The notes under the pieces were generated by a model, which was not told the DNA's origin, ran no database searches, and was given only the letters and a program-made list of their open reading frames with translations. A DNA stretch of 64,000 bases. Source: Mucilaginibacter pankratovii. Its GTDB lineage: Bacteria; Bacteroidota; Bacteroidia; Sphingobacteriales; Sphingobacteriaceae. Where the stretch lies: the NCBI RefSeq assembly GCF_014773265.1, contig NZ_JACWMY010000006.1, positions 62,001 to 126,000 of the forward strand. Direction: 5' to 3'. The stretch's first letter is position 1. The number at the start of each line of letters is the position of its first letter. Positions 29,602 through 43,413 of the stretch are shown piece after piece. The position numbers were made by a program, and so were the translations under genes.

Positions 29602-29662
29602 TAACAACTTAACATACCGGTTAAACTAAGGCCGTAGCTTTATAGTATCAAAAAAGAAAACT

Positions 29663-29827
29663 ATGGAAGCGGGATACAGCACAATTGACCTGGTGATGCT
29701 GGCTATAGCAGCATTTGTGATTTGGGTAGCCATGCGCACGCCAAAAAGGGAAAGCATATCAAAAGAAGAGAAACTTCAGTATAAAATAAAACGCAAAAGC
29801 CGTCGCGGTCACCCGGTTCCTTATTGA
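29663..29827 (+). CDS. 54-residue single-pass membrane protein
   Basis: A short gene, MEAGYSTIDLVMLAIAAFVI..., with one membrane helix (about residues 8-26) followed by a very basic tail (KYIKIK-like, KRKSRRGHPVPY). It lies 62 bp after the ankyrin gene and ends 7 bp before the glycosyltransferase start, so it is probably co-transcribed with the latter. Family not recognised. Confidence 0.6.
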   Translation: MEAGYSTIDLVMLAIAAFVIWVAMRTPKRESISKEEKLQYKIKRKSRRGHPVPY

Positions 29828-29834
29828 GTAAGCG

Positions 29835-31043
29835 ATGATGAGCCAATACGCGGATTTTGAGCCGGCCGTTATCGAACGCAAGGTTAGGGTGGTTTTTTTT
29901 GCGGAGATATTAACGGAGGGACTGGATGGTGCCATACGTACCATGTATCAGCTTGTCGACCGTATTGACCGGGGAAGGTTTGAGTTTTTGTTTGTTTATG
30001 GCGATGGGCCAGCAAACATCCGCGGATTTGAGAGCATTAAGGTACCCACCCTAAACCTGCCCATAAATGCGGGGTATTCTATGGCGCTGCCTGTTTTCGC
30101 GCAAAGCAGGTTGAGGGATGCATTGCAGCAATTCGCGCCCGATGTAGTGCATATTGCAACGCCATCGCTGTTGGGTACTTTTGGTTTGAATTACGCGGTG
30201 CAACACAAACTGCCGGTAATTTCCATCTATCACACCCACTTTATCTCCTATATAGATTATTACTTTAAACGTGCCCCGTTTTTAATAAACAGCATGAAGC
30301 AGCTGCTGGCGGCCAACCATAAGGCGTTTTATAACCAATGCCACAAGGTTTACGTTCCCTCTGAAAGTATCGAAGCAGAACTAAGCGCCATAGGTATAGC
30401 ACCGCAGCGGATGCAGTTGTGGAAACGCGGCATCGATACAAAATTATTTTCGCCCTATAAAAAAAACAAGAACACCTTGCATAAACTTACCGGGAACGGC
30501 AACCCCGGTATTTTGTTTGCCAGCAGGCTGGTTTGGGAAAAGAATTTGGAAACCCTGTTTGAAATATACGACGAACTGCAAGCCCAGGGCCCACCTGTAA
30601 ATTTTATAATTGCGGGCGACGGCGCAGCTTTAAAGGCCTGTAAAGCCCGGATGCCCAAGGCCATTTTTACCGGCAAGGTTAATCATAACCAGCTGGCGGT
30701 ATTGTACGCCTCTGCGGATGTTTTTCTGTTCCCCTCTGTATCCGAAACTTACGGAAACGTAGTGCTGGAGGCCATGGCTTCGGGCCTGCCCTGCGTAATA
30801 GCCGATGGAGGGGGCTCTAAAGATTTTATTGACCAGGGCGTAAATGGCTTTAAATGCCAGCCCTATAATGCCAAGGAATACGCCGGCAAAATACGCCTGT
30901 TATTGGCCAGCGATGCCATGCGGGCCCAGTTTATTGAGGAGGGGCTACAGTATAGCAGTAAATTTAGTTGGGATGAACTGGCGGCAACCTATTTTGATGA
31001 CGTTGATGCGTTAGCCGGCAAAAATGTATTAACCGCTGTATAG
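29835..31043 (+). CDS. Glycosyltransferase, GT4-type (GT-B fold)
   Basis: A 402-residue retaining glycosyltransferase. The N-terminal half binds the acceptor (EGLDGAIRTMYQLVDRID, SIYHTHFISYIDYYFK); the C-terminal half binds the sugar nucleotide (ILFASRLVWEKNLETLFEIY, FIIAGDGAALKACKAR, and PSVSETYGNVVLEAMASGLP with the E-x7-E pair E304/E312). It resembles mannosyl- or sulfoquinovosyl-transferases that make glycolipids. That would fit a phosphate-sparing role near the Pho-box-like array, but the substrate is not shown by sequence. Confidence 0.9.
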   Translation: MMSQYADFEPAVIERKVRVVFFAEILTEGLDGAIRTMYQLVDRIDRGRFEFLFVYGDGPANIRGFESIKVPTLNLPINAGYSMALPVFAQSRLRDALQQFAPDVVHIATPSLLGTFGLNYAVQHKLPVISIYHTHFISYIDYYFKRAPFLINSMKQLLAANHKAFYNQCHKVYVPSESIEAELSAIGIAPQRMQLWKRGIDTKLFSPYKKNKNTLHKLTGNGNPGILFASRLVWEKNLETLFEIYDELQAQGPPVNFIIAGDGAALKACKARMPKAIFTGKVNHNQLAVLYASADVFLFPSVSETYGNVVLEAMASGLPCVIADGGGSKDFIDQGVNGFKCQPYNAKEYAGKIRLLLASDAMRAQFIEEGLQYSSKFSWDELAATYFDDVDALAGKNVLTAV

Positions 31044-31074: not shown

Positions 31075-31157
31075 TTAACACAGGGGTAACATAAACGCTT
31101 TGTTATGGTAATACACTGGTAACACTGGGCTAACACGGACGTAATACTTTTGTTACG
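31075..31157 (+). promoter_or_regulatory. 11-bp-phased TAACA array and -7 box (TonB receptor promoter)
   Basis: Hexamers begin at 31075 TTAACA, 31086 GTAACA, 31108 GTAATA, 31119 GTAACA, 31130 CTAACA, 31141 GTAATA and 31152 GTTACG. All are in the same 11-bp phase; only the 31097 position is missing. TACTTTTG at 31145-31152 fits the Bacteroidota -7 box TAnnTTTG, so the array takes the place of the -33 element. The geometry is that of a PhoB-type activator site, inferred, not shown. Confidence 0.75.
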
Positions 31158-31171
31158 ATAAATTAAGTCAC

Positions 31172-33955
31172 GTGAAAAAAATTATATACGCAACAGTTCT
31201 ATTCGTCCTTGCCACATTTTCTGCAACCACTTTGCTGGCTCAAAACACCGGCAAAATTGTGGGTAAGGTAATTGACCAAAAAACAAGCGAAACCTTAATA
31301 GGCGCTACCGTAAGTATAGAAGGCACCACCAAAGGTGCTGCTACTGATGTGGACGGCCATTACTCTTTGGGTGGCATAGCTCCAGGCCGCTACACCATAT
31401 TAGTACGTTACATGGGGTACTCCACAAAATCTATTTCTGATATCGAAGTGAAGGCAAACGTTGCCACCCCGCTTGATGTTACTCTTGCCCCATCGGCAAC
31501 AACGGCCCTAAGCGAGGTCGTTATTAAAGCTACCTACCGCCAGGAATCGGTGAACGCGCTGTACGCTATTCAAAAAAACAGTGTATCCATATCTGATGGT
31601 ATTTCTTCGGAACTGATCCGCAGATCGCCGGACAGAAACACCAGCGATGTATTAAAACGCGTAAGCGGCACCACCATACAGGATAATAAATTTGTGGTAG
31701 TGCGCGGCTTAAGCGATCGTTACAACAGTGCATCGTTAGATGGCGCGCCGCTGCCAAGCACCGAGCCAAACCGTAAAGCGTTTTCGTTTGATATCGTGCC
31801 ATCCAGCCTGATAGATAATATCATCATCAGCAAAACAGCCAGCCCGGATCTTCCAGGCGATTTTGCTGGCGGTAACGTACAGATCCTGACCAAAGACATC
31901 CCCGATAATAACTTTTTAACCGTAGGCATTGGCTATTCATACAATACCCAAAGCACTTTTAAAGATTTTCAGGCCGGTTTCCGTAGCACAAGCGATTATT
32001 TCGCTTTTGATGATGGTACCCGTAAGCTGGTAAGCAATTTCCCCACCAGCACCGAAATATTAAACAATCAGGTAAGTAAGCCCCGCAACATACAAGCTAT
32101 CCAAAGCCTTAATAACGATTTCAGTATTTATAAAAGCAAAGCTTTACCGGGCCAAAACTACCAGATAACCTGGGGTAACGTTGCCGAGATAGGCAAAAAC
32201 AAAAACCGTTTTGGTACTACCGTTGCTTTAACATACCGCAACAGCCAAACCATTATTCCGGATTTGCAGCAACAATTTGATAACTACGATTATCATAGCG
32301 AACAAAACAAGTTTTCAACCAATATTGGGGCATTAGCCAACTTCGCTTACAGCTTCGGTAAAAACAAGATCACCTTTAAAAACTTGTACAATCGTATATT
32401 AGACGACCAGTTCACTTACCGTACAGGTTCGAACTCGGGAACCACATCGTCTGATAATAAATTCTACGCTTTCGATCTTTTGGAGAAAGGCTTGTTTAAA
32501 ACAACCCTGGAAGGCGAGCACGGCCTGGGCGCAAAAACCTCTAAAATTAAATGGAACCTGGGCTTCAGTAACATACTGAATGATCAGCCCGATCAGAAAA
32601 AAATAAACTACAAGCAAGGCAACCCGGGCGAACCGTATTATGCTACAGTGAGCAGCCTGGCTAAAGAGAACGCCCGTTTGTTCTCTCACTTAACAGAAAA
32701 TATTTATTCGGGCAAGGTAGATTACAACCTGCCGGTGAGCTTGTTTAAACAAAGTAACTTGAAAATAGGTGTCAGCTCCCAATACCGCGACAGGAAATTC
32801 GATGCCAGGTTTATAGGTTTAGTAATAGACGAGAATAACGACAATTACGATATCAACGCTATTTTGCAAAGGCCTATCCAAACGCTGTTTGGCCCTAATT
32901 TGATCAAAGCGGGCCTTTATAATTTGGATGAGATCCCCAATCTTACCGATAGGTACACTGCAAACAGCCTAACCAATGCTGGTTATGCCATGTTGGATAG
33001 CAAAATTGGAGAGAATGTACGCGTAGTTTACGGTTTAAGGGTAGAGAAGTTTAACCTGAATGTAGAGACAGAAGACCCTAACCAGCCGAAAGTGAAATTG
33101 GATAACACCGATTTCCTGCCATCGGTAAACTTTACTTACGCGCTTACTAAAAAGGCAAACTTCCGAGCATCATATTACCGTTCAGTTGCAAGGCCGGAGT
33201 TTAGGGAGCTTTCTTTATTCTCTTATTACGATTACGAGATGCTGGCTTCGGTACAGGGTAATCCAAACTTAAAACGTACTGTAATTGACAATGCCGACTT
33301 GAGGTATGAGTTTTATCCTTCTGCCGGCCAAATATTCTCGGTATCGGCGTTCTATAAAAAATTCCAAAACGCAATAGAGCCCTTAATTTCGGATGAGAAT
33401 TCATCAACTACCATTAGCTACTTCAACTCCAAATCGGCCTATGTATATGGTGTTGAATTAGAGGCACGTAAAGCGCTTGATTTTATTGATGGCAGCAATT
33501 TCTTTAAAAACAGTACAGCGTATGTAAATGCGTCGTTCACCAAGTCAAGAGTAACAAACCCAAATGATGGCGTGCCGCGTTTAGAAACAAAGCGTGCCCT
33601 GGTTGGCCAATCGCCTTACGTGATTAATGCTGGTTTAACCCATACCGAATTGGATAACAAATTATCATTCAATCTCCTGTTCAACAGGTTAGGCAAAAGG
33701 ATATTTTATGCAGGCGGAACCAGGTTTAGCAGCGTGTACGAGTTACCAAGAAGCGTGCTCGATTTCCAGGTGGGTTACAAGGTTCTGAAAAGCAAAGGAG
33801 AGATTAAATTAGGCGGTAGCGACCTGCTGAATGCGAAGTATAATTTCCAATACCAACTGGATGGAAAGCCATATAATTTCTCTGGAACGGGCTCCACTTT
33901 CAAAAGGTACACGCCAGGCACAAGTTACTCATTATCATTTAATTACACGTTTTAA
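31172..33955 (+). CDS. TonB-dependent outer-membrane receptor
   Basis: A 927-residue receptor. Signal peptide (1-23, ending LLAQ), a carboxypeptidase-D-like domain (about 28-105: GKVIDQKTSETLIGATVSIE...), a plug domain (about 120-230, with DVLKRVSGTTIQDNKFVVVR and GLSDRYNSASLDGAPLPS) and a C-terminal barrel ending SLSFNYTF. It starts with GTG at 31172, about 13 bp after the predicted transcription start. The family imports large or scarce ligands with TonB energy. The 11-bp array upstream and the similar one before the lipoprotein downstream suggest a common regulon, perhaps phosphate starvation. No SusD partner is present. Confidence 0.95.
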   Translation: MKKIIYATVLFVLATFSATTLLAQNTGKIVGKVIDQKTSETLIGATVSIEGTTKGAATDVDGHYSLGGIAPGRYTILVRYMGYSTKSISDIEVKANVATPLDVTLAPSATTALSEVVIKATYRQESVNALYAIQKNSVSISDGISSELIRRSPDRNTSDVLKRVSGTTIQDNKFVVVRGLSDRYNSASLDGAPLPSTEPNRKAFSFDIVPSSLIDNIIISKTASPDLPGDFAGGNVQILTKDIPDNNFLTVGIGYSYNTQSTFKDFQAGFRSTSDYFAFDDGTRKLVSNFPTSTEILNNQVSKPRNIQAIQSLNNDFSIYKSKALPGQNYQITWGNVAEIGKNKNRFGTTVALTYRNSQTIIPDLQQQFDNYDYHSEQNKFSTNIGALANFAYSFGKNKITFKNLYNRILDDQFTYRTGSNSGTTSSDNKFYAFDLLEKGLFKTTLEGEHGLGAKTSKIKWNLGFSNILNDQPDQKKINYKQGNPGEPYYATVSSLAKENARLFSHLTENIYSGKVDYNLPVSLFKQSNLKIGVSSQYRDRKFDARFIGLVIDENNDNYDINAILQRPIQTLFGPNLIKAGLYNLDEIPNLTDRYTANSLTNAGYAMLDSKIGENVRVVYGLRVEKFNLNVETEDPNQPKVKLDNTDFLPSVNFTYALTKKANFRASYYRSVARPEFRELSLFSYYDYEMLASVQGNPNLKRTVIDNADLRYEFYPSAGQIFSVSAFYKKFQNAIEPLISDENSSTTISYFNSKSAYVYGVELEARKALDFIDGSNFFKNSTAYVNASFTKSRVTNPNDGVPRLETKRALVGQSPYVINAGLTHTELDNKLSFNLLFNRLGKRIFYAGGTRFSSVYELPRSVLDFQVGYKVLKSKGEIKLGGSDLLNAKYNFQYQLDGKPYNFSGTGSTFKRYTPGTSYSLSFNYTF

Positions 33956-33968
33956 TAATAAGCCATTT

Positions 33969-34018
33969 GTTATTATTTAGTTAACACAGTGTTAACACCA
34001 TATCTATTACTTTGTTAA
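33969..34018 (+). promoter_or_regulatory. 11-bp-phased GTTAACA repeats before the lipoprotein gene
   Basis: GTTATTA at 33969, GTTAACA at 33980 and GTTAACA at 33991 are spaced exactly 11 bp. TACTTTG at 34008-34014 is a near -7 box, and the start codon follows at 34038. GTTAACACAGTGTTAAC (33980-33996) is also a perfect palindrome, so the site could bind either a tandem or a dimeric regulator. Confidence 0.68.
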
Positions 34019-34037
34019 AAATCGAAAGAGTTCAGTT

Positions 34038-35486
34038 ATGAAAAAATCATTATTATTTTTAGTACTTGGCACCACCATATTGATGGCATCGTGCAGTAAA
34101 AAAGAAGCAGTTATCGATCCGGATCCTCCCATTGTAGTTGTTCCAACAACCGCTGTTGAAGTAACTGGCGACATTGCTACCAGCACTACCTGGACCGCTG
34201 ACAAAATTTATACACTTAAAGGTTTTGTGTACGTTACAAACGGCGCAACACTTACTATAGAAGCCGGTACAATTGTTAAAGGCGATAAAGCAAGCAAAGG
34301 TACTTTGATCATTACCCGCGGCGCAAAGATCAGCGCTATTGGTACTGTTGATAAACCAATTGTATTTACTTCATCATTTGCTGTGGGCACTCGTTCATCT
34401 GGTGATTGGGGTGGTATCATCCTGTTGGGTAAAGCGCCGGTTAACCAGAGCGATAACACGCCTATCGAAGGTGGTTTGGATGCAAAAGGCGACGCTGCCA
34501 AATACATCCAGTACGGCGGTACTGATGCTGCTGACAACTCAGGTACTTTAAAATATGTGCGTATTGAGTACGCAGGTATCCCTTTTTCACCAGATAATGA
34601 GATCAACGGCCTTACAATGGGTGGTGTTGGCTCAGGTACAACACTTGATTATATCCAGATCTACCGCTCGGGCGATGATTCATTTGAGTGGTTTGGTGGC
34701 TCGGTAAACGCTAAACACTTATTATCTATCGGTGCTTTAGATGATGATTTTGATACCGATTTTGGTTACTCGGGTAAGGTGCAGTTTGGTATCGCTCAGC
34801 GTTACCCTTCTATCGCTGATAACTCTGGTTCAAACGCGTTCGAGTCGGATAATGATGGTTCTGGTTCTGATAAAGTACCACAAACTTCGGCTGTTTTCTC
34901 AAACATGACCTTATTAGGCCCAGCATCAGGTGCTGCAACTCCTTCAAACATCAGTGCTAACTTTCAGCATGGTGCACAGCTTCGCCGTAACACTGCAGAG
35001 AGCATCTTAAACTCTGTATTCGCAGGTTTTATGGAAGGTATCTACATTGACGATTCCAAAGTAACAACTGCTGGTTCAACTTCAACCAACTATACTGCTG
35101 GTCGTTTAGTGTTCGAAAACAACCTGATCTACGGTAGTAACAGGAAGAGCAATGAAGTAAAAGGCGACAACGCTGTTCAAAAAGCCATCTTCGAAGCAAC
35201 TTTGAGAGCTAACAACACTTTCCTTGCAACTTCATTTGCTGATGCATTGATCACATCGCCGTTTAAATTCTCATCTGACTTTGCTAACGCAGGCACTCCG
35301 GATTTTAAGGATGTAGCGGGTTCGCCATCGGCTTCAGGTGCATTATTTACTAATGCAAAAGTTAATATCGCATTCTTTGATAAAGTTACTTTCCGTGGTG
35401 CTGTTGGTGATACCGACTGGACTGCCGGCTGGACTAACTTTAACCCACAGGTTATGCCTTACACCACCCCTGGTGCTGTAAAATAA
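34038..35486 (+). CDS. Surface lipoprotein with repeated beta-structure
   Basis: A 482-residue protein with a lipoprotein signal (LFLVLGTTILMASC, acylated C19), then a Pro/Asp/Val-rich spacer and a long domain: WTADKIYTLKGFVYVTNGAT, LTIEAGTIVKGDKASKGTLI, IVFTSSFAVGTRSSGDWGGI. The pattern suggests a right-handed beta-helix on the cell surface. Homologues in Bacteroidota are common next to TonB receptors and lack a known activity. It shares the 11-bp array with the receptor upstream, so it is likely the surface partner of that system. The last 56 bp are duplicated at 39239-39295. Confidence 0.85.
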   Translation: MKKSLLFLVLGTTILMASCSKKEAVIDPDPPIVVVPTTAVEVTGDIATSTTWTADKIYTLKGFVYVTNGATLTIEAGTIVKGDKASKGTLIITRGAKISAIGTVDKPIVFTSSFAVGTRSSGDWGGIILLGKAPVNQSDNTPIEGGLDAKGDAAKYIQYGGTDAADNSGTLKYVRIEYAGIPFSPDNEINGLTMGGVGSGTTLDYIQIYRSGDDSFEWFGGSVNAKHLLSIGALDDDFDTDFGYSGKVQFGIAQRYPSIADNSGSNAFESDNDGSGSDKVPQTSAVFSNMTLLGPASGAATPSNISANFQHGAQLRRNTAESILNSVFAGFMEGIYIDDSKVTTAGSTSTNYTAGRLVFENNLIYGSNRKSNEVKGDNAVQKAIFEATLRANNTFLATSFADALITSPFKFSSDFANAGTPDFKDVAGSPSASGALFTNAKVNIAFFDKVTFRGAVGDTDWTAGWTNFNPQVMPYTTPGAVK

Positions 35487-35487
35487 T
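35432..35487 (+). repeat. Direct repeat, copy 1 (3' end of the lipoprotein gene)
   Basis: Starts GACTAACTTTAACCCACAGG and ends GTGCTGTAAAATAAT, including the stop codon. It matches 39239-39295 with about three substitutions and one inserted base. The two copies enclose the barrel and DUF5977 genes. Confidence 0.85.
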
Positions 35488-35507
35488 AGTAGAAATTTAA
35501 AATTGAT

Positions 35508-35540
35508 AAAAATGGCTTTCCAATCCGGGAGGCCATTTTT
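35508..35540 (+). terminator. Terminator after the lipoprotein gene
   Basis: AAAAATGGC and GCCATTTTT pair around TTTCCAATCCGGGAG, followed by an AT-rich tract. Confidence 0.8.
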
Positions 35541-35569
35541 ATTTATTAATATTTATATTATAAATACTT

Positions 35570-38146
35570 ATGCACAAGTGGCTTTTTGTTTTATTATGGT
35601 TGATTAACGTAAGTACTGTTTTTGCACAAAATGATAAGAAATTACTAATACAAGGTACGCTTAGAGATTCTACTAATGATAAAGTTATTGCTAAGGAATA
35701 TTTTAATGTTGATATAAATGGCAAATTGATAAGTTTAAGAACTGACGGCCAAGGCAAATTTGTTTCAAACGTAAGTTCCGACCATTTTACTCAATTCGAA
35801 TTTAGGGTAAACGGTTACCAGTACAAAAGGATAAAACCCAGTAGGTTAAAAAGTGACACATTGGATTTTAAATTTATTAACCTATCGCCTAAAGTAACTG
35901 CGCTGAAAGAGGTTGTTATTAAGGCAACAAAGAGGTATCGAGATACGGTTAGAATCGATTTTTCAAAGGAAAAGTTCGAGAGATTTACTATGGTAAATGA
36001 GATATTTGCCGGTAAGAGTGGATTTAGTAGCAGTAACGGCACATTGTATTATAACGGTAAGATAGTAAGCGATATAAGCGTAAACGGAGGTGAGTTTTTT
36101 GGGAAAAAGAATTTGGATGTATATAAAACGTTACCTGCGTTGGTAATTGGTAATATCGAGATCACAGAAACAAACATTGATAGTTTAACTAACGCAACGG
36201 TTTTAAATCCCATAATTAAAGTGGATTTAAAGTTGAAAGAAAAATATAGAAGCGCGGTTTTTGGCGATCTAAGCGCTGGGGTCGGAACATCAGATAGATA
36301 CCTCGGTTATGCGGAATTATTTAAATATAATGGGAATGAGCAAATATCTTTAGCAGCGAATGCTAATAATATTAACCTGGTTGATAACACGCTTTTAGAC
36401 CGGAATGTAAGTTTTACGGCTAATGGTAGCGATTCTAAAACAAACTTTTTAGACCTTAGCTACAGAAATTTTATCCGGAAGAAAATTGAATTCAGGTTTT
36501 CTGCAAAAGGGGTAATGCAGAATAGAACTTCTGACCTTAAAACTGAACGACGAGATGAACTGATCGATCAGGTGTCTTCCACAAGCGTTGTTTCAAACTT
36601 TAAACAATTTGATATACAGCGGGCTGGGGCAATAATTAATTATAAGATAAATGAAAGCAGTAATTTAAGCTATAGCCAAAATTTTACGTATAACGACAAT
36701 CGACAAATAGATTCATCGCAGTATTTAATTGACGCTAACAACACACAAAGCTTATCAATATTAAATAAAAACAGAGCAACTTACGGGTATGCATTAACGG
36801 GTGACCTAAAATATCAAAAGCAGTTTATAAGTGCAAAAGGACGCTTTATAGGTTTAGGTATAGGTTACAACAGTGAGCGTAATACCGTTAACGAAAATAG
36901 CCGGGTATTTGCTTTACTTGGCCAGGGAATGGATACATACTACGTGCAAGGAAAAAGGCAATTAAGCACACTGGGGTTTGCCGGTAATATTGATTACCAT
37001 CATCCTGTTTTAGAAGATGGCTCGCTGCAATTCTCTGCGGCATTTAAAACCGAACGGTTAAATTTTACTACTAATTTAGATTCGGATACAATAAAAATAA
37101 GTAACGAGTTTCCTACAAATATTCTTAATAATATTTACAAATCGGGGATTAAATTTTATAAAATATTTAATGTTATTACAATTGATGCGTTGATAAGTGG
37201 GAGCTTTAACAGCCGGGTTGTTAAGGAATTCATTGCAACCCGGGAATATCATTTTGCACACCCGGTTATCGACGTTAAGGCTAACTACAAAATAAATAAG
37301 AAGAACGATTTTGTTGTTAACGTTGGAGTAGCCCCTGTTTACCCAGAGGTTAATCAACTAACAGGTATTGGAAATAGTTTTGATCTGATCAGCCAGCGGC
37401 AAGGGAACGCCGGCATTAAGCCTGAGTTGAAGAGCAGCTTTAATATCGCATACAATGCGAGGAAATCGGATTCGCTGAACCTGAGTATTAGCGGTTTTGT
37501 TGAGCATTATAGCGCTAAGTTCGGCGATAATGTGATAATTAAACCCAATACTTATCAGATTGGATTTGTTGACAATATTGGGAATTCAATATCCAGTCAG
37601 CTATCGGTTACATGGAATAAGACCTTTAAAACGATTGGTGCTTACAGCTACACAACCAAAGTAGGCTATGAGGAATTGCCGGTTATCGTAAATCAGCAGC
37701 GCTATAGCAATAAAAATAAATATATAGGTCAAAGCATTACTACATCCTTTACAATAATTAAAAAGTACGTTTATATTGCGCCAAATCTGAATATTACTTT
37801 TAATAACTATACATATCAAAACGGCGGCTCCAAAATATTGACGATTATCTATAGCGATAAATTCTCTTTTTCTTTTAAAAGCTTGCAGCTTAATTTATAC
37901 CCCGTATCAAATTTCAATTATAACGCTGGGATTAATAAATCTTTTACGTGGGCATTAAATAGTGATGTTAATATGAACATACTTAAAAAGCGCGGCACCA
38001 TTTGGTTAAGAGGGTACGACATCTTCAATTCATTTAAATATTACAGTAATTATGTTGGCGCTAATTACGTGCAAACCGCAAAATTCGCCGGATTAAATCG
38101 ATATATTATCGTGGGATTAATTTTAAAGGTTAATAATATTAATTAA
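35570..38146 (+). CDS. Outer-membrane beta-barrel protein, TonB-receptor-like
   Basis: An 858-residue protein with a signal peptide (1-20, ending VFAQ), a carboxypeptidase-D-like domain (about 27-110), a short plug-like stretch (LKEVVIKATKRYRDTVRIDF, GTLYYNGKIVSDISVNGGEF) and a large barrel of about 650 residues. The architecture is that of the receptor-like outer-membrane barrel family. It differs from its neighbours in strong AT richness and in codon use, and lies between two copies of the lipoprotein gene's 3' end, so it looks imported. It is followed 73 bp later by the DUF5977 gene, its probable partner. Confidence 0.88.
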   Translation: MHKWLFVLLWLINVSTVFAQNDKKLLIQGTLRDSTNDKVIAKEYFNVDINGKLISLRTDGQGKFVSNVSSDHFTQFEFRVNGYQYKRIKPSRLKSDTLDFKFINLSPKVTALKEVVIKATKRYRDTVRIDFSKEKFERFTMVNEIFAGKSGFSSSNGTLYYNGKIVSDISVNGGEFFGKKNLDVYKTLPALVIGNIEITETNIDSLTNATVLNPIIKVDLKLKEKYRSAVFGDLSAGVGTSDRYLGYAELFKYNGNEQISLAANANNINLVDNTLLDRNVSFTANGSDSKTNFLDLSYRNFIRKKIEFRFSAKGVMQNRTSDLKTERRDELIDQVSSTSVVSNFKQFDIQRAGAIINYKINESSNLSYSQNFTYNDNRQIDSSQYLIDANNTQSLSILNKNRATYGYALTGDLKYQKQFISAKGRFIGLGIGYNSERNTVNENSRVFALLGQGMDTYYVQGKRQLSTLGFAGNIDYHHPVLEDGSLQFSAAFKTERLNFTTNLDSDTIKISNEFPTNILNNIYKSGIKFYKIFNVITIDALISGSFNSRVVKEFIATREYHFAHPVIDVKANYKINKKNDFVVNVGVAPVYPEVNQLTGIGNSFDLISQRQGNAGIKPELKSSFNIAYNARKSDSLNLSISGFVEHYSAKFGDNVIIKPNTYQIGFVDNIGNSISSQLSVTWNKTFKTIGAYSYTTKVGYEELPVIVNQQRYSNKNKYIGQSITTSFTIIKKYVYIAPNLNITFNNYTYQNGGSKILTIIYSDKFSFSFKSLQLNLYPVSNFNYNAGINKSFTWALNSDVNMNILKKRGTIWLRGYDIFNSFKYYSNYVGANYVQTAKFAGLNRYIIVGLILKVNNIN

Positions 38147-38219
38147 TTGTTATGTTATTAATTTTAATGAAAAGCGAATTGTTTAAACATTAAGTTTGAC
38201 TAAATATTTAAATATAACC

Positions 38220-39134
38220 ATGAAAAAAATCTTATCACTCTTTGCTTTACTAATCTGTTACGCAGGTAGCTTTGCGCAGACTTTATCTCCGTCAGCTTCA
38301 ACGTTTGAGTCGGACACCTATTACACTATCACAGTGAATGGCGAAACTAACTCTGCGTATTTAAATAATATTTCATACCCCAGAACAGACAACACTTCGC
38401 CAACATTCAATGGTACTAATTATTTAACTGCTGATGGCATTGGTCAAACCAATCTGTTTATGCAATACCAAGTTCCTGCGAGCAAAACCCAATTTACATT
38501 TAAAGTAACTAACGTAAACACTATAAATATGCAGGTTACATTTTCTTTTAATGTAAGTGGCCCAGGCATACCTTCAAAAAAGTTGACGTTTACCGTTAAT
38601 GTAAAGCCTAAGGCGGCAATTTTCTATAACGTTGCTAAAACACAGTTTTTTACGAAAAATAATTGCGGTACAGGGTACACGGGAACCAGTGTTGCATATA
38701 GCGTACCTGCAAATAAATACAACTCAACCACTCAAGCGGATGCCGATCAGAAGGCTCAAAATGAGATTAATGCTAATGGACAAGCGCAGGCTAATGCAAA
38801 CGGTTCTTGTTTTATAGATTATAGTCATTGGTTTACGAGTTGGGATCATTCTATGAGATACAATGGAAGTGATTGGTCAACCGACATGTATTGGAATAAA
38901 GACTTAGTCGCTACGACTACTGTTACTATACAAGTTTACCAAAGTGGGGTATTTAAAGGCGTTGTAGCCACAGGGGTTCCAAACACAGGGCACGCATTTT
39001 TAGATTTTACGCCATACTTAACTTTACATGCTCCTAATGCTCATACATTTGAAAATGTGTCGTTAAAAATTATTTCAGATAGCAACACGGCCATTTCTGA
39101 TTTTTCTGATACTTATGATATGCAAGTAGATTAG
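38220..39134 (+). CDS. Secreted DUF5977-containing protein
   Basis: A 304-residue secreted protein. Signal peptide at 1-20 (ending GSFAQ), an Ig-like N-terminal part (about 25-130), then one DUF5977 unit near residues 138-200: FFTKNNCGTGYTGTSVAYSV, PANKYNSTTQADADQKAQNE, QAQANANGSC. DUF5977 units occur in large Bacteroidota surface proteins; here there is one. The C-terminal part is again beta-rich. The ATG at 38220 starts the signal peptide. The gene shares the AT-rich composition of the barrel gene upstream and closes the inserted segment. Confidence 0.85.
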   Translation: MKKILSLFALLICYAGSFAQTLSPSASTFESDTYYTITVNGETNSAYLNNISYPRTDNTSPTFNGTNYLTADGIGQTNLFMQYQVPASKTQFTFKVTNVNTINMQVTFSFNVSGPGIPSKKLTFTVNVKPKAAIFYNVAKTQFFTKNNCGTGYTGTSVAYSVPANKYNSTTQADADQKAQNEINANGQAQANANGSCFIDYSHWFTSWDHSMRYNGSDWSTDMYWNKDLVATTTVTIQVYQSGVFKGVVATGVPNTGHAFLDFTPYLTLHAPNAHTFENVSLKIISDSNTAISDFSDTYDMQVD

Positions 39135-39238
39135 CGCTCACTTATATTGAAGACTTATAGATGTTTACACACAATATTGGCCGTTGGTGGATGGCTGCTG
39201 TTTCATTAGTTAACCAAATTGATTTGTAATATCGTTTA
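39135..39238. other. Non-coding tail of the inserted cassette
   Basis: About 100 bp between the DUF5977 stop and the second direct repeat. No gene and no inverted repeat or integrase site is recognisable; composition is AT-rich like the cassette. Confidence 0.4.
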
Positions 39239-39295
39239 GACTAACTTTAACCCACAGGTTATGCCCTACACCACCTCCGGGTGCTGTAAAATAAT
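39239..39295 (+). repeat. Direct repeat, copy 2 (decayed 3' end of the lipoprotein gene)
   Basis: GACTAACTTTAACCCACAGG ... GTGCTGTAAAATAAT, the partner of 35432-35487, with an extra base in CACCTCCGGGTG that breaks the reading frame. It is not attached to any coding sequence. It is followed by its own terminator. Confidence 0.85.
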
Positions 39296-39311
39296 CGCAA
39301 TAAAATATCAC

Positions 39312-39346
39312 AAAAAGACTGCCTCATCATATGAGGCAGCTTTTTT
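39312..39346 (+). terminator. Terminator after the second direct repeat
   Basis: CTGCCTCAT (39319) and ATGAGGCAG (39331) pair around a three-base loop, with A-run before and T-run after. Possibly the original terminator of the lipoprotein gene before the cassette arrived. Confidence 0.8.
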
Positions 39347-39376
39347 ACTTAAATAAAAGATAGCGCAGTTGAATAG

Positions 39377-39976
39377 ATGAGTTTTTTACATGTACATTTT
39401 AGTGAGATAGATACCCAGATATCGCAGTTTGCGAGGGCCATTGCTTTGCCTATACGCGTTTTTATCCTGCGGATGATAGCCGAGAACGGCAACAGCCTAA
39501 GCAAGCAGGCTTTTTATACCACCGCCTTTAATACAAAAACCATAAACAAGCACATACAGGAATTGCGCGGGCTGGGCATCATCAAAGCCAAAACCGTAAA
39601 AGCCGAGGTAACTTATTGTATCGACGAAAAGCTGTTCGGGCAAATGTCGGCCAACTTTAGTACGTTCTTTGAGCAAAACGCCTTGCCGGGTGAGGATCCG
39701 GCAAACGCAAACCCATCCCAGGCGGTAGCCCGTCCGTCGGATTTAATGAATTTTACCAATTTTGGTGCTTATATCAAAGATCATCGACTGGAGCTGAACC
39801 TCTCGCAGGCAACCCTCGCAGCAAAAATAAACATAGACCGCGCCCTGCTCAGCCGGATAGAGACAGGGAAAAAAGAGCTGAATACAGATAGGTTACCATT
39901 GCTTGCCAAAGCACTTTACCTCGATGTTGATGAATTAAGGGATGCAGAACATAAATTGAGTAAGGGAACTGCTTGA
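39377..39976 (+). CDS. Fusion regulator: winged helix plus XRE-type HTH
   Basis: A 199-residue DNA-binding protein with two different binding domains. Residues about 8-85 look like an ArsR/winged-helix domain (LPIRVFILRMIAENGNSLSK, TINKHIQELRGLGIIKAKTV); residues about 125-190 are an XRE/HTH_3 domain (IKDHRLELNLSQATLAAKIN, RALLSRIETGKKELNTDRLP). A Pro/Ala-rich linker joins them. It lies between the imported cassette and the second large receptor. It has no cognate array of its own, and may regulate the neighbouring surface genes. Function not known. Confidence 0.85.
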   Translation: MSFLHVHFSEIDTQISQFARAIALPIRVFILRMIAENGNSLSKQAFYTTAFNTKTINKHIQELRGLGIIKAKTVKAEVTYCIDEKLFGQMSANFSTFFEQNALPGEDPANANPSQAVARPSDLMNFTNFGAYIKDHRLELNLSQATLAAKINIDRALLSRIETGKKELNTDRLPLLAKALYLDVDELRDAEHKLSKGTA

Positions 39977-40010
39977 AAAGAACAGTAATTCACTTTAGAC
40001 CCATCTTTTG

Positions 40011-40125
40011 TTAACATTGAATTAATAAAAGAACGGATCACGCATGTACACAGCGTAGTTAAATATAATCCTCCCATAACATTGGGTTAACATTGTAGCC
40101 GAACCTTTGTGGTGTTAAAATAACA
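40011..40125 (+). promoter_or_regulatory. 11-bp-phased TTAACA repeats before the second receptor
   Basis: TTAACA at 40011 and TTAATA at 40022 are 11 bp apart; ATAACA at 40076 and TTAACA at 40087 are again 11 bp apart. AACCTTTG at 40102-40109 fits seven of eight bases of the -7 box, and the start codon is at 40129. The second pair sits just where an activator would replace the -33 element, as at 31075-31157. Confidence 0.65.
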
Positions 40126-40128
40126 CAA

Positions 40129-43100
40129 ATGAAAAAGCTATACTTTATACTGATCACTTTACTTTTTGCCACAGCCGCAAACGCACAAATAACTACTGCC
40201 GTTATCAGCGGTAAGGTGGTAGATCAAAAAGGAATTTCTTTACCGGGTGTATCTATCTCGGTTATAAACACCAGCACGGGCACACGCTACGGCTCACAAA
40301 CAAATGCCGAAGGGCGCTACACCATCCCCAACTTAAACGCGGGTGGCCCCTACACCATTAGTGCTACCTTTATCGGTTACAAAAAGGATGAACGCACCGA
40401 TATCAACTTACAATTGGGCAGTGCTACTTTCAACTTTTTACTGGTAGATGAAACCACTTCGCTTAAAGAAGTAAAGGTTGTTGCCACAAACGGTGCAAGC
40501 AAAACAGGCGCAAGCACACGCATCAGCGCAAATCAGATCCGCAACCTGCCTACCATCAACCGCAGCCTGCAGGATCTTACCCGTACTACACCGCAAAGCA
40601 ATAACAACTCGTTCCAGGGTGCCAACTACCGTTACAATAACGTAACGCTTGATGGAGCCATTAACAACGATGCGATAGGCTTTAGCCCGTCATTAGGCGG
40701 CCAGTCTAACGCTTCGGGCCAGGTGGGCAGCAGTACCCGTACCAGTCCGGTATCGTTAGATGCGATACAGGATATACAGGTGCTGGTAGCCCCATATGAC
40801 ATAAAAATTGGTAACGTTTTGGGCGGCAGTATCAACGCGGTAACCCGCAGCGGTACAAACGATGTCACCGGTTCTATTTACGGCTATGGCCGCGGTGCCT
40901 TCCTGGTAGGCCCAAACAATTCTAAAGTTGCATTGGGTGGCGATGGCTCAAGCCTGCCATCGTCTTTCCACGATTATCAAACCGGGATCCGCTTAGGTTT
41001 CCCGCTGATCAAAAATAAATTATTCTTCTTCACCAACGAAGAAATTGCCCGCCGGCAGGATCCCGTTATCAGGGGCCTTGATCACAACGGTTCAGCTAAT
41101 ATATTAAGCCAGGCTGATGGTGATAAAATTGTTACTGCATTTAAAGCATTTACTACCGATGCTGCCCATCCAAATGGCATTGACCCGGGAACGTATAACA
41201 ACACATCTATCTTCTCGCGCAGCAACAAATACTTTAACCGTATCGACTGGAACATCAACGATAAAAACCAGTTAACCCTACGTAACAACACTATCTCGTC
41301 AACCGCTACTAACTTAGAGCGCGATCAGCAGAACTTCCGTTTCGGCGGCATCGACTATACATCGCATAACAACTCCAGCTCAACTGTTGCCGAATTGAAA
41401 TCTCGTTTTAGCAACAATGTAAGCAACAGTTTAGTATTGGGTTACTCAAACGTGCATGACTACCGCGACCCGAACTCTAACCCCGCTTTGCCGCAGATAG
41501 AAATTACCGGTAACACACCGGGTACCACCATCTTTTTGGGTACCGACCGTGAGGCTGCCATATTTGATATGCGCCAAAAAACTACCGAGTTTACCGATAA
41601 CCTTACCTTAATAAAGGGAAAGCACACCTTTACCTTTGGTACACACAACGAGTTTTACGATATCACCTACAATTTTGTAAACGCCTGGAACGGCCGTATC
41701 GCTTACAGCAGCATCGCTAACTTCCTGGCCAATAACCCTTCACGTACACGTGCCAATTATAATTACATAAACAACACCCGCGATTATATTATGGCCAACC
41801 CATCGGCAAGGTTTAAAGTAAACCTGCTTAGCCTTTACGGCCAGGACGAGATACACCTTACCGATAACTTTAAGCTTACCGCGGGTATCCGTTTTGACTA
41901 TGCCGATGTGCCAAACACACAGCCGCTAAGCACCAAAACAACCAATGCACCAGTTGATGTAAATTACGGCAACACTTTTACCTATACAAAACCTGCTGAT
42001 ATTAAAAACAACTACTTGGGCAACGTGCAAATAAACCCAAGGGTATCTTTTAACTATGATATCAATGGCGACCAAACAGCTATATTGCGTGGTGGCACAG
42101 GCTTCTTTACCGGCCGTGTACCATTCGCTTGGTTTGGTTACGCGTTTTATAACAATGGCGATACTTACGGCGCTTACGATAAAAAGCCAACCGCAGCAGC
42201 ACCCATTACCCCGGGTACCAACCCTGTACAGGCACCGGTTAATGGCGGCTTAGGTTATGTAACACAACAAACCAACCCGGCACCAAACGTAAGCGCCACC
42301 GGCCCAACCCAGGTTGACTTAATTGACAATAACTTTAAAATGCCGCAGGTATGGCGTACTAACTTAGCTTACGATTATACCACTGCCGATAAATGGAAAT
42401 TTACGGTGGAAGGGATCTACACCAAAGTTATCCGCGATTTGAAATTCCAGCAGGTAAACATTACCGACCAGGTAACTTACTACCCGTATGACGTAGATAA
42501 ACAGCAGCCGATATTTGTGAACAAAGGCGTTAACCCATCGTACACCAATGCCTACCTGTTATCAAACACCAACCAGGGTTACCGTTACAGCTTAACTGCG
42601 CAGGTAGCCAAAACATTCCCTTTTGGCTTGAATGCATCGGTAGCTTATACTTACGGACACTCTAAAGATATCACCAACGGTATCCGTAACTCCATGGAAA
42701 GCAACTGGCAGCTGAATCAGGCGCTTAATCCAAACAGCCCTGTGTTAGCCAACTCTAATTTCGATATCCGTAACCGCATCGTATCAACCCTTAACTATAT
42801 GGTTAACTGGGGTGGCAATCAAAACTTAACCGCCAACTTTACCTTCTTCCTGAGTGCGCAATCGGGTAACCCGTATTCGTACGGCTTCCTGCCAAGTGCT
42901 ATAGACGGTACTGGCCAGCAGGTTAGCTTAGCCTACATCCCTAAAACAGGCGAAACGGTCAACTTCTTTAGCGACGTTGCCGGTGGCCAAACCGCGGTGC
43001 AACAGGCAGCTGCGTTTGATGCCTTTATAGATAAGGATAAATACCTGTCTACCCGCCGTGGGCAGTTCACCCAGCGTAACGCTGCGTTTACGCCGTGGAA

Positions 43101-43413
43101 CAATAACCTTGATTTCCGTTTCTCACAGGACTTTAAATTCGGGAAAGGTAAACGTAAGCAGGTGATCACCTTTACTTACGATATTGTGAACTTAACCAAC
43201 CTGCTGAACAAAAACTGGGGACAATATTACTTCTCGGCCAATACGTTCAACTCAACTGCGAGTGTGGGCTTAACGCCTAAAACAACACCGGCCTTTGGTT
43301 CGGTAGCGTCAACATATCCTAAGTACACCTTCAGCGATCCGGGTGTGCCATATTCTGTAGACCTGTTTGCTTCGCGCTGGCAGATGCAGTTTGGCTTGCG
43401 CTACGCGTTCTAA
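40129..43413 (+). CDS. TonB-dependent receptor, Oar-like
   Basis: A 1094-residue outer-membrane protein. Signal peptide (1-19, ending ANAQ), a carboxypeptidase-D-like domain (about 25-105, KVVDQKGISLPGVSISVINT), a plug with NRSLQDLTRTTPQSNNNSFQ and VTLDGAINNDAIGFSPSLGG, and a long barrel ending MQFGLRYAF. It belongs to the Oar-like group without a SusD partner. A terminator follows at 43441. The upstream TTAACA pairs tie it to the two other array-controlled genes. Confidence 0.95.
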   Translation: MKKLYFILITLLFATAANAQITTAVISGKVVDQKGISLPGVSISVINTSTGTRYGSQTNAEGRYTIPNLNAGGPYTISATFIGYKKDERTDINLQLGSATFNFLLVDETTSLKEVKVVATNGASKTGASTRISANQIRNLPTINRSLQDLTRTTPQSNNNSFQGANYRYNNVTLDGAINNDAIGFSPSLGGQSNASGQVGSSTRTSPVSLDAIQDIQVLVAPYDIKIGNVLGGSINAVTRSGTNDVTGSIYGYGRGAFLVGPNNSKVALGGDGSSLPSSFHDYQTGIRLGFPLIKNKLFFFTNEEIARRQDPVIRGLDHNGSANILSQADGDKIVTAFKAFTTDAAHPNGIDPGTYNNTSIFSRSNKYFNRIDWNINDKNQLTLRNNTISSTATNLERDQQNFRFGGIDYTSHNNSSSTVAELKSRFSNNVSNSLVLGYSNVHDYRDPNSNPALPQIEITGNTPGTTIFLGTDREAAIFDMRQKTTEFTDNLTLIKGKHTFTFGTHNEFYDITYNFVNAWNGRIAYSSIANFLANNPSRTRANYNYINNTRDYIMANPSARFKVNLLSLYGQDEIHLTDNFKLTAGIRFDYADVPNTQPLSTKTTNAPVDVNYGNTFTYTKPADIKNNYLGNVQINPRVSFNYDINGDQTAILRGGTGFFTGRVPFAWFGYAFYNNGDTYGAYDKKPTAAAPITPGTNPVQAPVNGGLGYVTQQTNPAPNVSATGPTQVDLIDNNFKMPQVWRTNLAYDYTTADKWKFTVEGIYTKVIRDLKFQQVNITDQVTYYPYDVDKQQPIFVNKGVNPSYTNAYLLSNTNQGYRYSLTAQVAKTFPFGLNASVAYTYGHSKDITNGIRNSMESNWQLNQALNPNSPVLANSNFDIRNRIVSTLNYMVNWGGNQNLTANFTFFLSAQSGNPYSYGFLPSAIDGTGQQVSLAYIPKTGETVNFFSDVAGGQTAVQQAAAFDAFIDKDKYLSTRRGQFTQRNAAFTPWNNNLDFRFSQDFKFGKGKRKQVITFTYDIVNLTNLLNKNWGQYYFSANTFNSTASVGLTPKTTPAFGSVASTYPKYTFSDPGVPYSVDLFASRWQMQFGLRYAF

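Follow-up and report, generated by a model that had tools for sequence, protein, structure and literature searches.

Tandem 11-bp TAACA repeats, probable Pho boxes, precede three surface-protein genes of Mucilaginibacter pankratovii

What switches on genes whose promoters have a -7 box and no clear -33 element? The question is raised by a 64-kb stretch of the Mucilaginibacter pankratovii genome (the window, whose coordinates are used here; the source genome comprises 6.37 Mb in 34 contigs), in which TAACA-type hexamers repeated every 11 bp precede the genes of a TonB-dependent receptor, a surface lipoprotein, and an Oar-like outer-membrane receptor. An earlier note on this DNA proposed that one OmpR/PhoB-type regulator controls all three genes, possibly for phosphate scavenging, and our analysis supports the proposal. 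The arrays are very likely Bacteroidota Pho boxes, to which PhoB would bind in place of the -33 element, activating the three surface genes. From the comparisons below we infer PhoB as the regulator that binds, activation rather than repression, contact with the sigma factor, and phosphate as the signal. The three genes are very probably switched on at phosphate shortage, since relatives place the same 11-bp repeat before phosphate-import genes.

Hexamers in 11-bp register at a fixed distance from the -7 box

Read in register, the receptor promoter carries TTAACA at 31075, GTAACA at 31086, GTAATA at 31108, GTAACA at 31119, CTAACA at 31130, and GTAATA at 31141, and position 31097 reads GCTTTG, which is not a hexamer. 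Hexamers thus occupy six of the seven in-phase 11-bp positions; the phase reported earlier stands and the count of seven hexamers does not. The lipoprotein promoter has strong TTAACA hexamers at 33981 and 33992 and a weak TTATTA at 33970 (two mismatches), so that the three repeats claimed for it keep their 11-bp spacing and shrink to two strong units and a weak one. Both 11-bp pairs of the Oar-like promoter (40011/40022 and 40076/40087) are as the earlier note described them, and its array coordinates are correct. From the start of one pair to the start of the other is 65 bp, which misses the 11-bp phase by a single base.

The -7 TTTG is located at 31149, 34011, and 40106, exactly +19 from the starts of the last strong hexamers (31130, 33992, and 40087) in all three promoters, and the boxes stand 9 bp before the -7 box. 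The consensus of the sites in the position weight matrix (PWM) described below is ctTAACAtt, without a TTTG-type -33 motif. Both findings agree with the earlier claim of a constant -7 position and no clear -33 element. A perfect TAnnTTTG is present at the receptor promoter only. Against the derived pattern TAACA-N6-TAACA-N9-TAnnTTTG, the receptor, lipoprotein, and Oar-like promoters have zero, one, and one mismatch, respectively, in the scan of the own genome.

When each intergenic region is dinucleotide-shuffled 2000 times, the probability of reaching the observed number of 11-bp pairs is 0.0005 for the receptor, 0.019 for the lipoprotein, and 0.0005 for the Oar-like gene. The PWM spans 45 positions and derives from 56 training sites in other genomes. 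On both strands of the window, it ranks the three promoters first to third (receptor 32.2, Oar-like 30.5, lipoprotein 19.0), compared with maxima of 5.9 in the reversed window and 14.7 in 20 mononucleotide shuffles (one strand each). Allowing up to two mismatches, the derived pattern has 23 sites in the own genome and 9 when written backwards; nine of the 23, the three window promoters included, have at most one mismatch. The exact pattern occurs in 127 of 151 family genomes, compared with 2/151 for the backwards pattern, 2/151 for a 12-bp phase, and 1/151 for a 10-bp phase, so that the array is indeed conserved in relatives, as the earlier note expected. A variant of the -7 pattern with a gap of 11–28 was dropped; it missed the main site class, because the true gap is 9.

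The spacing is also recovered without use of the motif. We fetched 80 loci via the lipoprotein, with receptor homologs inside the locus in 72; 74 loci were used, 68 of them with a usable receptor, and six were dropped for too short an upstream sequence. Exact TAACA pairs upstream of the receptor are spaced by 11 bp in 22/68 loci and by 33 bp in 22/68, and each of the other spacings between 6 and 40 bp occurs in at most three loci. The distance from hexamer to TTTG is 19 nt in 34 cases, 30 nt in 24, and 52 nt in 12, any other distance occurring at most once. These distances differ in steps of 11 bp and therefore fall on about one helical face. A PWM score of at least 10 is reached upstream of the receptor in 31 of 39 Sphingobacteriales-type loci and 14 of the 29 others, and in none of 210 control stretches inside receptor genes. 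The named loci are related and some training genomes probably belong to the same species; therefore, the PWM and spacing counts are not independent. For the Oar-like homologs, the best score is at least 20 in seven of ten loci examined.

Genes behind the motif

Each of the nine own-genome sites with no or one mismatch has its gene directly downstream: besides the three surface genes of the window, these are the DUF47(PhoU_div)-PHO4 operon of a phosphate transporter, a second DUF47 gene, the genes of a non-specific endonuclease lipoprotein and of a DUF2490 protein, and two extracytoplasmic function (ECF) sigma genes. The latter (C33:219231-219821 and C11:695319-695918; loci L164, L165, L287, and L288) have Pho-box-like promoters, and both loci run on into FecR, a TonB-plug/SusC-type receptor, and SusD, and hold phosphoesterase genes. 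Fourteen further sites have two mismatches; among the five whose surroundings were read, one (C7) is followed closely by a phosphodiesterase-family gene and one (C28), at a distance of 239 bp, by a second such gene. An Oar-like paralog (C11:86837-90160) has an exact TTAACA-N5-TTAACA upstream with TTTG at +30, as does a metallophosphatase gene (C34, PF12850), whose upstream 11-bp pair is exact as well.

In the family, 70 sites were classed, 40 of them extra sites picked by hand among the matches listed, the second 20 leaning away from PiT-like sites, and therefore the 70 sites do not form a random sample. The DUF47-PiT phosphate transporter operon is the commonest target (32/70), followed by receptor homologs (17, one weak) and DUF2490 (4); a metallophosphatase, a lipoprotein, an endonuclease, and a phosphodiesterase occur once each. 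By eye, the 13 unmatched sites precede ECF sigma genes (6), GDPD, PHO4, metallophosphatase, SusC, M23, and TPR genes (1 each), and in one case no open reading frame (ORF). The enrichment at receptor and phosphate genes that the earlier note had looked to is thus found.

Across the phylum, the exact pattern is found in 25 of 296 genomes, and in none of 296 when written backwards. Eighteen of the matching genomes lie outside the family, and one locus was classed in each: seven precede receptor homologs, and one each an Oar-like receptor, PstS, Porin_O_P (a phosphate-type porin), and a metallophosphatase; the rest comprise a kinase, an ABC protein, a TetR regulator, a glycerophosphotransferase-like protein, and three unclear cases. 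The PstS (L213) scores 256.4 bits with TIGR02136 (cut-off 206.6). A pstS gene, for which the earlier note had proposed to look, thus stands behind the pattern once outside the family; in the own genome, no pstS match exceeds the family cut-off (pstCAB and phoX were not searched); one weak pstS match of the own genome lies, by eye, in an ExbD/TonB-like cluster.

The earlier note also linked the glycosyltransferase gene upstream of the receptor to phospholipid replacement, a suggestion that is partly supported. PF12850 is the Pfam family given for PlcP in passages of PMC8115612, and LpxH-type models also match the C34 metallophosphatase, below their cut-off; judged by sequence, the protein may be PlcP-like or LpxH-like. 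The box ahead of the glycosyltransferase unit is a weaker candidate. It is the fourth-best PWM site in the window (11.8), below the best of the 20 shuffles, and is backed by just two relatives (L049 and L054), in which the sequences upstream of the glycosyltransferase orthologs score 11.6 and 16.2.

The promoter of a lysine-rich 105-residue protein without a Pfam match (C28:433568-433885, L043), whose gene adjoins the second DUF47 gene, holds an 11-bp array of four units, its TTTG displaced by two bases from the usual places. The DUF2490 gene (C5:1594-2325, L047) has a long 11-bp array, by eye, and DUF2490 homologs in the genus (L225, L269, and L271-L273) share the exact pattern. The DUF2490 protein may be an unrecognised phosphate-related surface protein.

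The features of the window are collected in Table 1. The best match of the lipoprotein in named records is from Mucilaginibacter gilvus (85%; the window's own record is possibly excluded), and parallel beta-helix proteins make up most of its top fold matches (TM-scores ~0.1–0.4).

Table 1 Putative regulatory elements and genes of the window
Feature	Position (strand)	Details
Candidate weaker Pho box	29609..29642 (+)	TTAACA/GTTAAA, -7 TAGCTTTA
54-codon ORF	29663..29827 (+)	between the candidate box and the glycosyltransferase
GT4-type glycosyltransferase	29835..31043 (+)	glycolipid-synthase models match far below their cut-offs
TonB-receptor promoter, putative Pho-box array	31075..31152 (+)	-7 box TACTTTTG ends at 31152
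TonB-dependent receptor	31172..33955 (+)	GTG start; CarbopepD_reg_2, Plug, TonB barrel (Pfam/NCBIfam)
Lipoprotein promoter, putative Pho box	33981..34014 (+)	two TTAACA 11 bp apart, -7 TTACTTTG
Surface lipoprotein	34038..35486 (+)	no Pfam match; predicted beta-helix
Oar-like promoter, upstream hexamer pair	40011..40027 (+)	40011 TTAACA / 40022 TTAATA, 11 bp apart
Oar-like promoter, putative Pho box	40076..40109 (+)	ATAACA-N5-TTAACA (40076/40087), -7 AACCTTTG
Oar-like outer-membrane receptor	40129..43413 (+)	CarboxypepD_reg, OMP_b-brl_4

The candidate regulator and the competing explanations

The best PhoB match of the own genome is C11:101290-101979. Five flavobacterial loci among the 80 (L105, L108, L110, L113, and L123) have lipoprotein homologs of ~50% identity with phoB- and phoR-like genes nearby, and the PhoB-like proteins of all five match this same gene best, at 239–261 bits, with the next of eight own regulators compared at 131 bits or less. 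In Halpernia/Chryseobacterium loci, phoB-phoR and the receptor-lipoprotein pair diverge from each other, as the gene order in three of them shows. The own phoB and phoR-like genes are not at the receptor-lipoprotein locus, and the PhoR-like kinase gene ends directly before the PiT-operon box. The own phoB promoter reads TTAACA-N5-TTAATA-N5-TTAACC, and an 11-bp pair is present upstream of phoB in all 16 located genes (of 18 loci, all of one genus), so that phoB, for which the earlier note had proposed to look, is a candidate target.

The layout of the promoters matches a classical activator box, and on this basis a sequence of events may be proposed. When phosphate is scarce, a PhoR-type kinase would phosphorylate a PhoB-type regulator, for which C11:101290-101979 is the candidate. 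The tandem TAACA half-sites, which at their 11-bp spacing share one face of the DNA and immediately precede the -7 box, would be bound by head-to-tail PhoB dimers. Bound PhoB would replace the missing -33 element and recruit the Bacteroidota housekeeping sigma factor, which would read TAnnTTTG. As a result, the TonB receptor, the surface lipoprotein, and the Oar-like receptor would be switched on, together with the PiT transporter operon, the nuclease, phosphodiesterases, and the ECF-sigma/SusCD phosphate-utilisation loci. Extra units, of which the receptor promoter has six in all, would raise the affinity or the response range.

Several observations weigh against PhoB as activator of these genes through such boxes. 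The candidate regulator scores 229.5 bits compared with the equivalog cut-off of 296.2 (TIGR02154), and the PhoR candidate 231.8 bits compared with 334.2 (phoR_proteo). In the phoB array, the TTTG spacing departs from the usual one, and the site is palindromic as well. A receptor site scoring at least 10 is missing in 8/39 Sphingobacteriales-type loci and 15/29 others, and four of the eight siteless loci (L050, L051, L056, and L090) are all from Mucilaginibacter. The siteless status of L070 is at least partly an artefact, because the box straddles the called start and the likely twin L260 has an exact site. Receptors linked to phoBR in flavobacteria score low in four of five cases (L108, -10.4; L110, -6.6; L113 and L123, 3.2; the fifth, L105, 14.2), and therefore the box there is diverged, or there is none of this kind. 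Upstream of the lipoprotein, a score of at least 10 is reached in a minority of homolog loci (6/41 and 4/33); therefore, the lipoprotein may be read from the receptor promoter in most relatives. Opposite-strand 11-bp pairs occur upstream of the receptor in 7/68 loci and are mostly unexplained. Few genomes outside the family (18/288) have the exact pattern, and a phylum-wide claim for the strict pattern was rejected on this count. Finally, four of eight exact bare pairs TTAACA-N5-TTAACA in the own genome (C5:46996, C6:181942, C29:299865, and C30:355346) precede no fitting gene; the remaining four precede the PiT operon, the lipoprotein, the Oar paralog, and the metallophosphatase.

Two of these groups have features of their own. 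L050, L051, L056, and L090 have no clear array and instead have another similar stretch in common upstream, around gaaccattgGTAAC, which may serve another regulator. One opposite-strand array, in Pontibacter fetidus, precedes a Porin_O_P gene divergent from the receptor (L122:3549-4742).

The alternative that survives best is that another regulator of the OmpR/PhoB family, not PhoB, binds the arrays in response to a different envelope or nutrient signal. We consider it improbable. The phosphate transporter operon heads the list of targets, a PhoR-like kinase gene ends right before its box, the PhoB ortholog carries an array itself, and PstS and the phosphate-type porin stand behind the pattern in other families. 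These points tell against a different regulator, even though nine own-genome matches span nearly the whole PhoB model, so that other OmpR-type regulators could favour tandem repeats, and many targets are outer-membrane proteins.

That PhoB binds but mainly represses these genes is very improbable. Regulators of the PhoB family can activate or repress, according to the passages of a review (PMC4415409), but the boxes here stand 9 bp before the -7 box, much as they stand 10 bp before the -10 box in E. coli in the passages of PMC1906773, and the Flavobacterium counterparts are induced by phosphate depletion, as passages of PMC8115612 describe.

The chance of repeats arising from AT-rich promoter DNA and a -7 consensus is negligible and, single weak sites such as 29609 excepted, already refuted for the site set: the bare pair with one mismatch is mildly enriched in the own genome (52+56 compared with 40+33 backwards), 7 of 30 inspected places fall within ORFs, and half of the exact pairs lack a fitting gene, but with the -7 spacing the contrast of 127/151 genomes to 1–2/151 remains, and spacing peaks appear only at 11 and 33 bp in the motif-independent loci. 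As a sole predictor, the bare pair was rejected for its weak enrichment and ORF-internal matches.

Control of the arrays by PhoB thus remains the preferred reading, and it may reach further. We give about even chances to a Pho-box code of the Bacteroidota's own (a TAACA-type 11-bp array 19, 30, or 52 nt from TAnnTTTG, in several families) in combination with PhoB driving ECF-sigma/anti-sigma genes. If this is true, phosphate hunger would arm SusCD-type loci in two steps, PhoB first and a substrate-sensing sigma factor second. Bacteroidota are important in organic phosphorus turnover, as passages of PMC8115612 state, and the passages of low-phosphate regulon studies found for the phylum (Flavobacterium and Bacteroides) give no binding site. 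The motif is specific (127/151 compared with 1–2), and therefore the Pho regulon of many genomes may be read off directly from the sequence. Surface receptors and lipoproteins whose substrate is unknown would gain a likely physiological role, and the PhoB-to-ECF-sigma cascade becomes directly testable.

Comparison with known Pho boxes and phosphate regulons

The consensus of Pho boxes varies by species, and in E. coli the box consists of tandem 11-nt direct repeats, two units making one box (passages of PMC4415409); it sits 10 bp upstream of the -10 element (passages of PMC1906773). The arrays of the window resemble it in the 11-bp tandem repeats and in a near-equal distance to the core promoter (9 bp to -7 here, 10 bp to -10 there). 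They differ in the half-site, which is TAACA-like here and CTGTCAT-like there, and in the core promoter, which is the Bacteroidota TAnnTTTG.

The cyanobacterial SphR box, in the passages of PMC1906773, comprises at least three CTTAACCT repeats, each of 8 bp with a 3-bp linker, giving an 11-bp period. The consensus ctTAACAtt is strikingly similar to this repeat, although the phylum and core promoter are different and two strong units are enough at most sites here. The PhoP box of Bacillus subtilis has TT(A/T/C)ACA-type repeats about 11 bp apart and belongs to a different regulator lineage.

Our searches of open-licence PMC papers brought up no Bacteroidota Pho-box consensus. Putative Pho boxes are marked in plcP clusters of marine bacteria (passages of PMC4796936). 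Bacteroides fragilis PhoB binds the pstC promoter region in a gel shift, and the passages of PMC3547664 that report this give no binding-site sequence. The own genome differs in lacking a pstS above the family cut-off.

A close parallel is offered by Flavobacterium johnsoniae. Its phoBR operon, according to passages of PMC8115612, clusters a glycosyltransferase, PhoB, PhoR, a TonB-dependent transporter (TBDT), and a beta-helix lipoprotein, and is induced by low phosphate, above all the TBDT (FC 8.02) and the lipoprotein (FII 9.91; values from Table 1 of that study, whose text uses log2FC). PlcP, nucleases, and SusCD-type PUS loci with phosphoesterases are low-phosphate-induced too (PMC8115612, same passages). 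The main text of the study mentions no Pho box, promoter, or motif. The glycosyltransferase there is of pf04101, unlike the GT4 type here, and phoB and the phoR-like gene lie elsewhere in the own genome. A similar pair of receptor and predicted beta-helix lipoprotein, with a glycosyltransferase gene nearby, and SusCD loci with phosphoesterases are present in the own genome.

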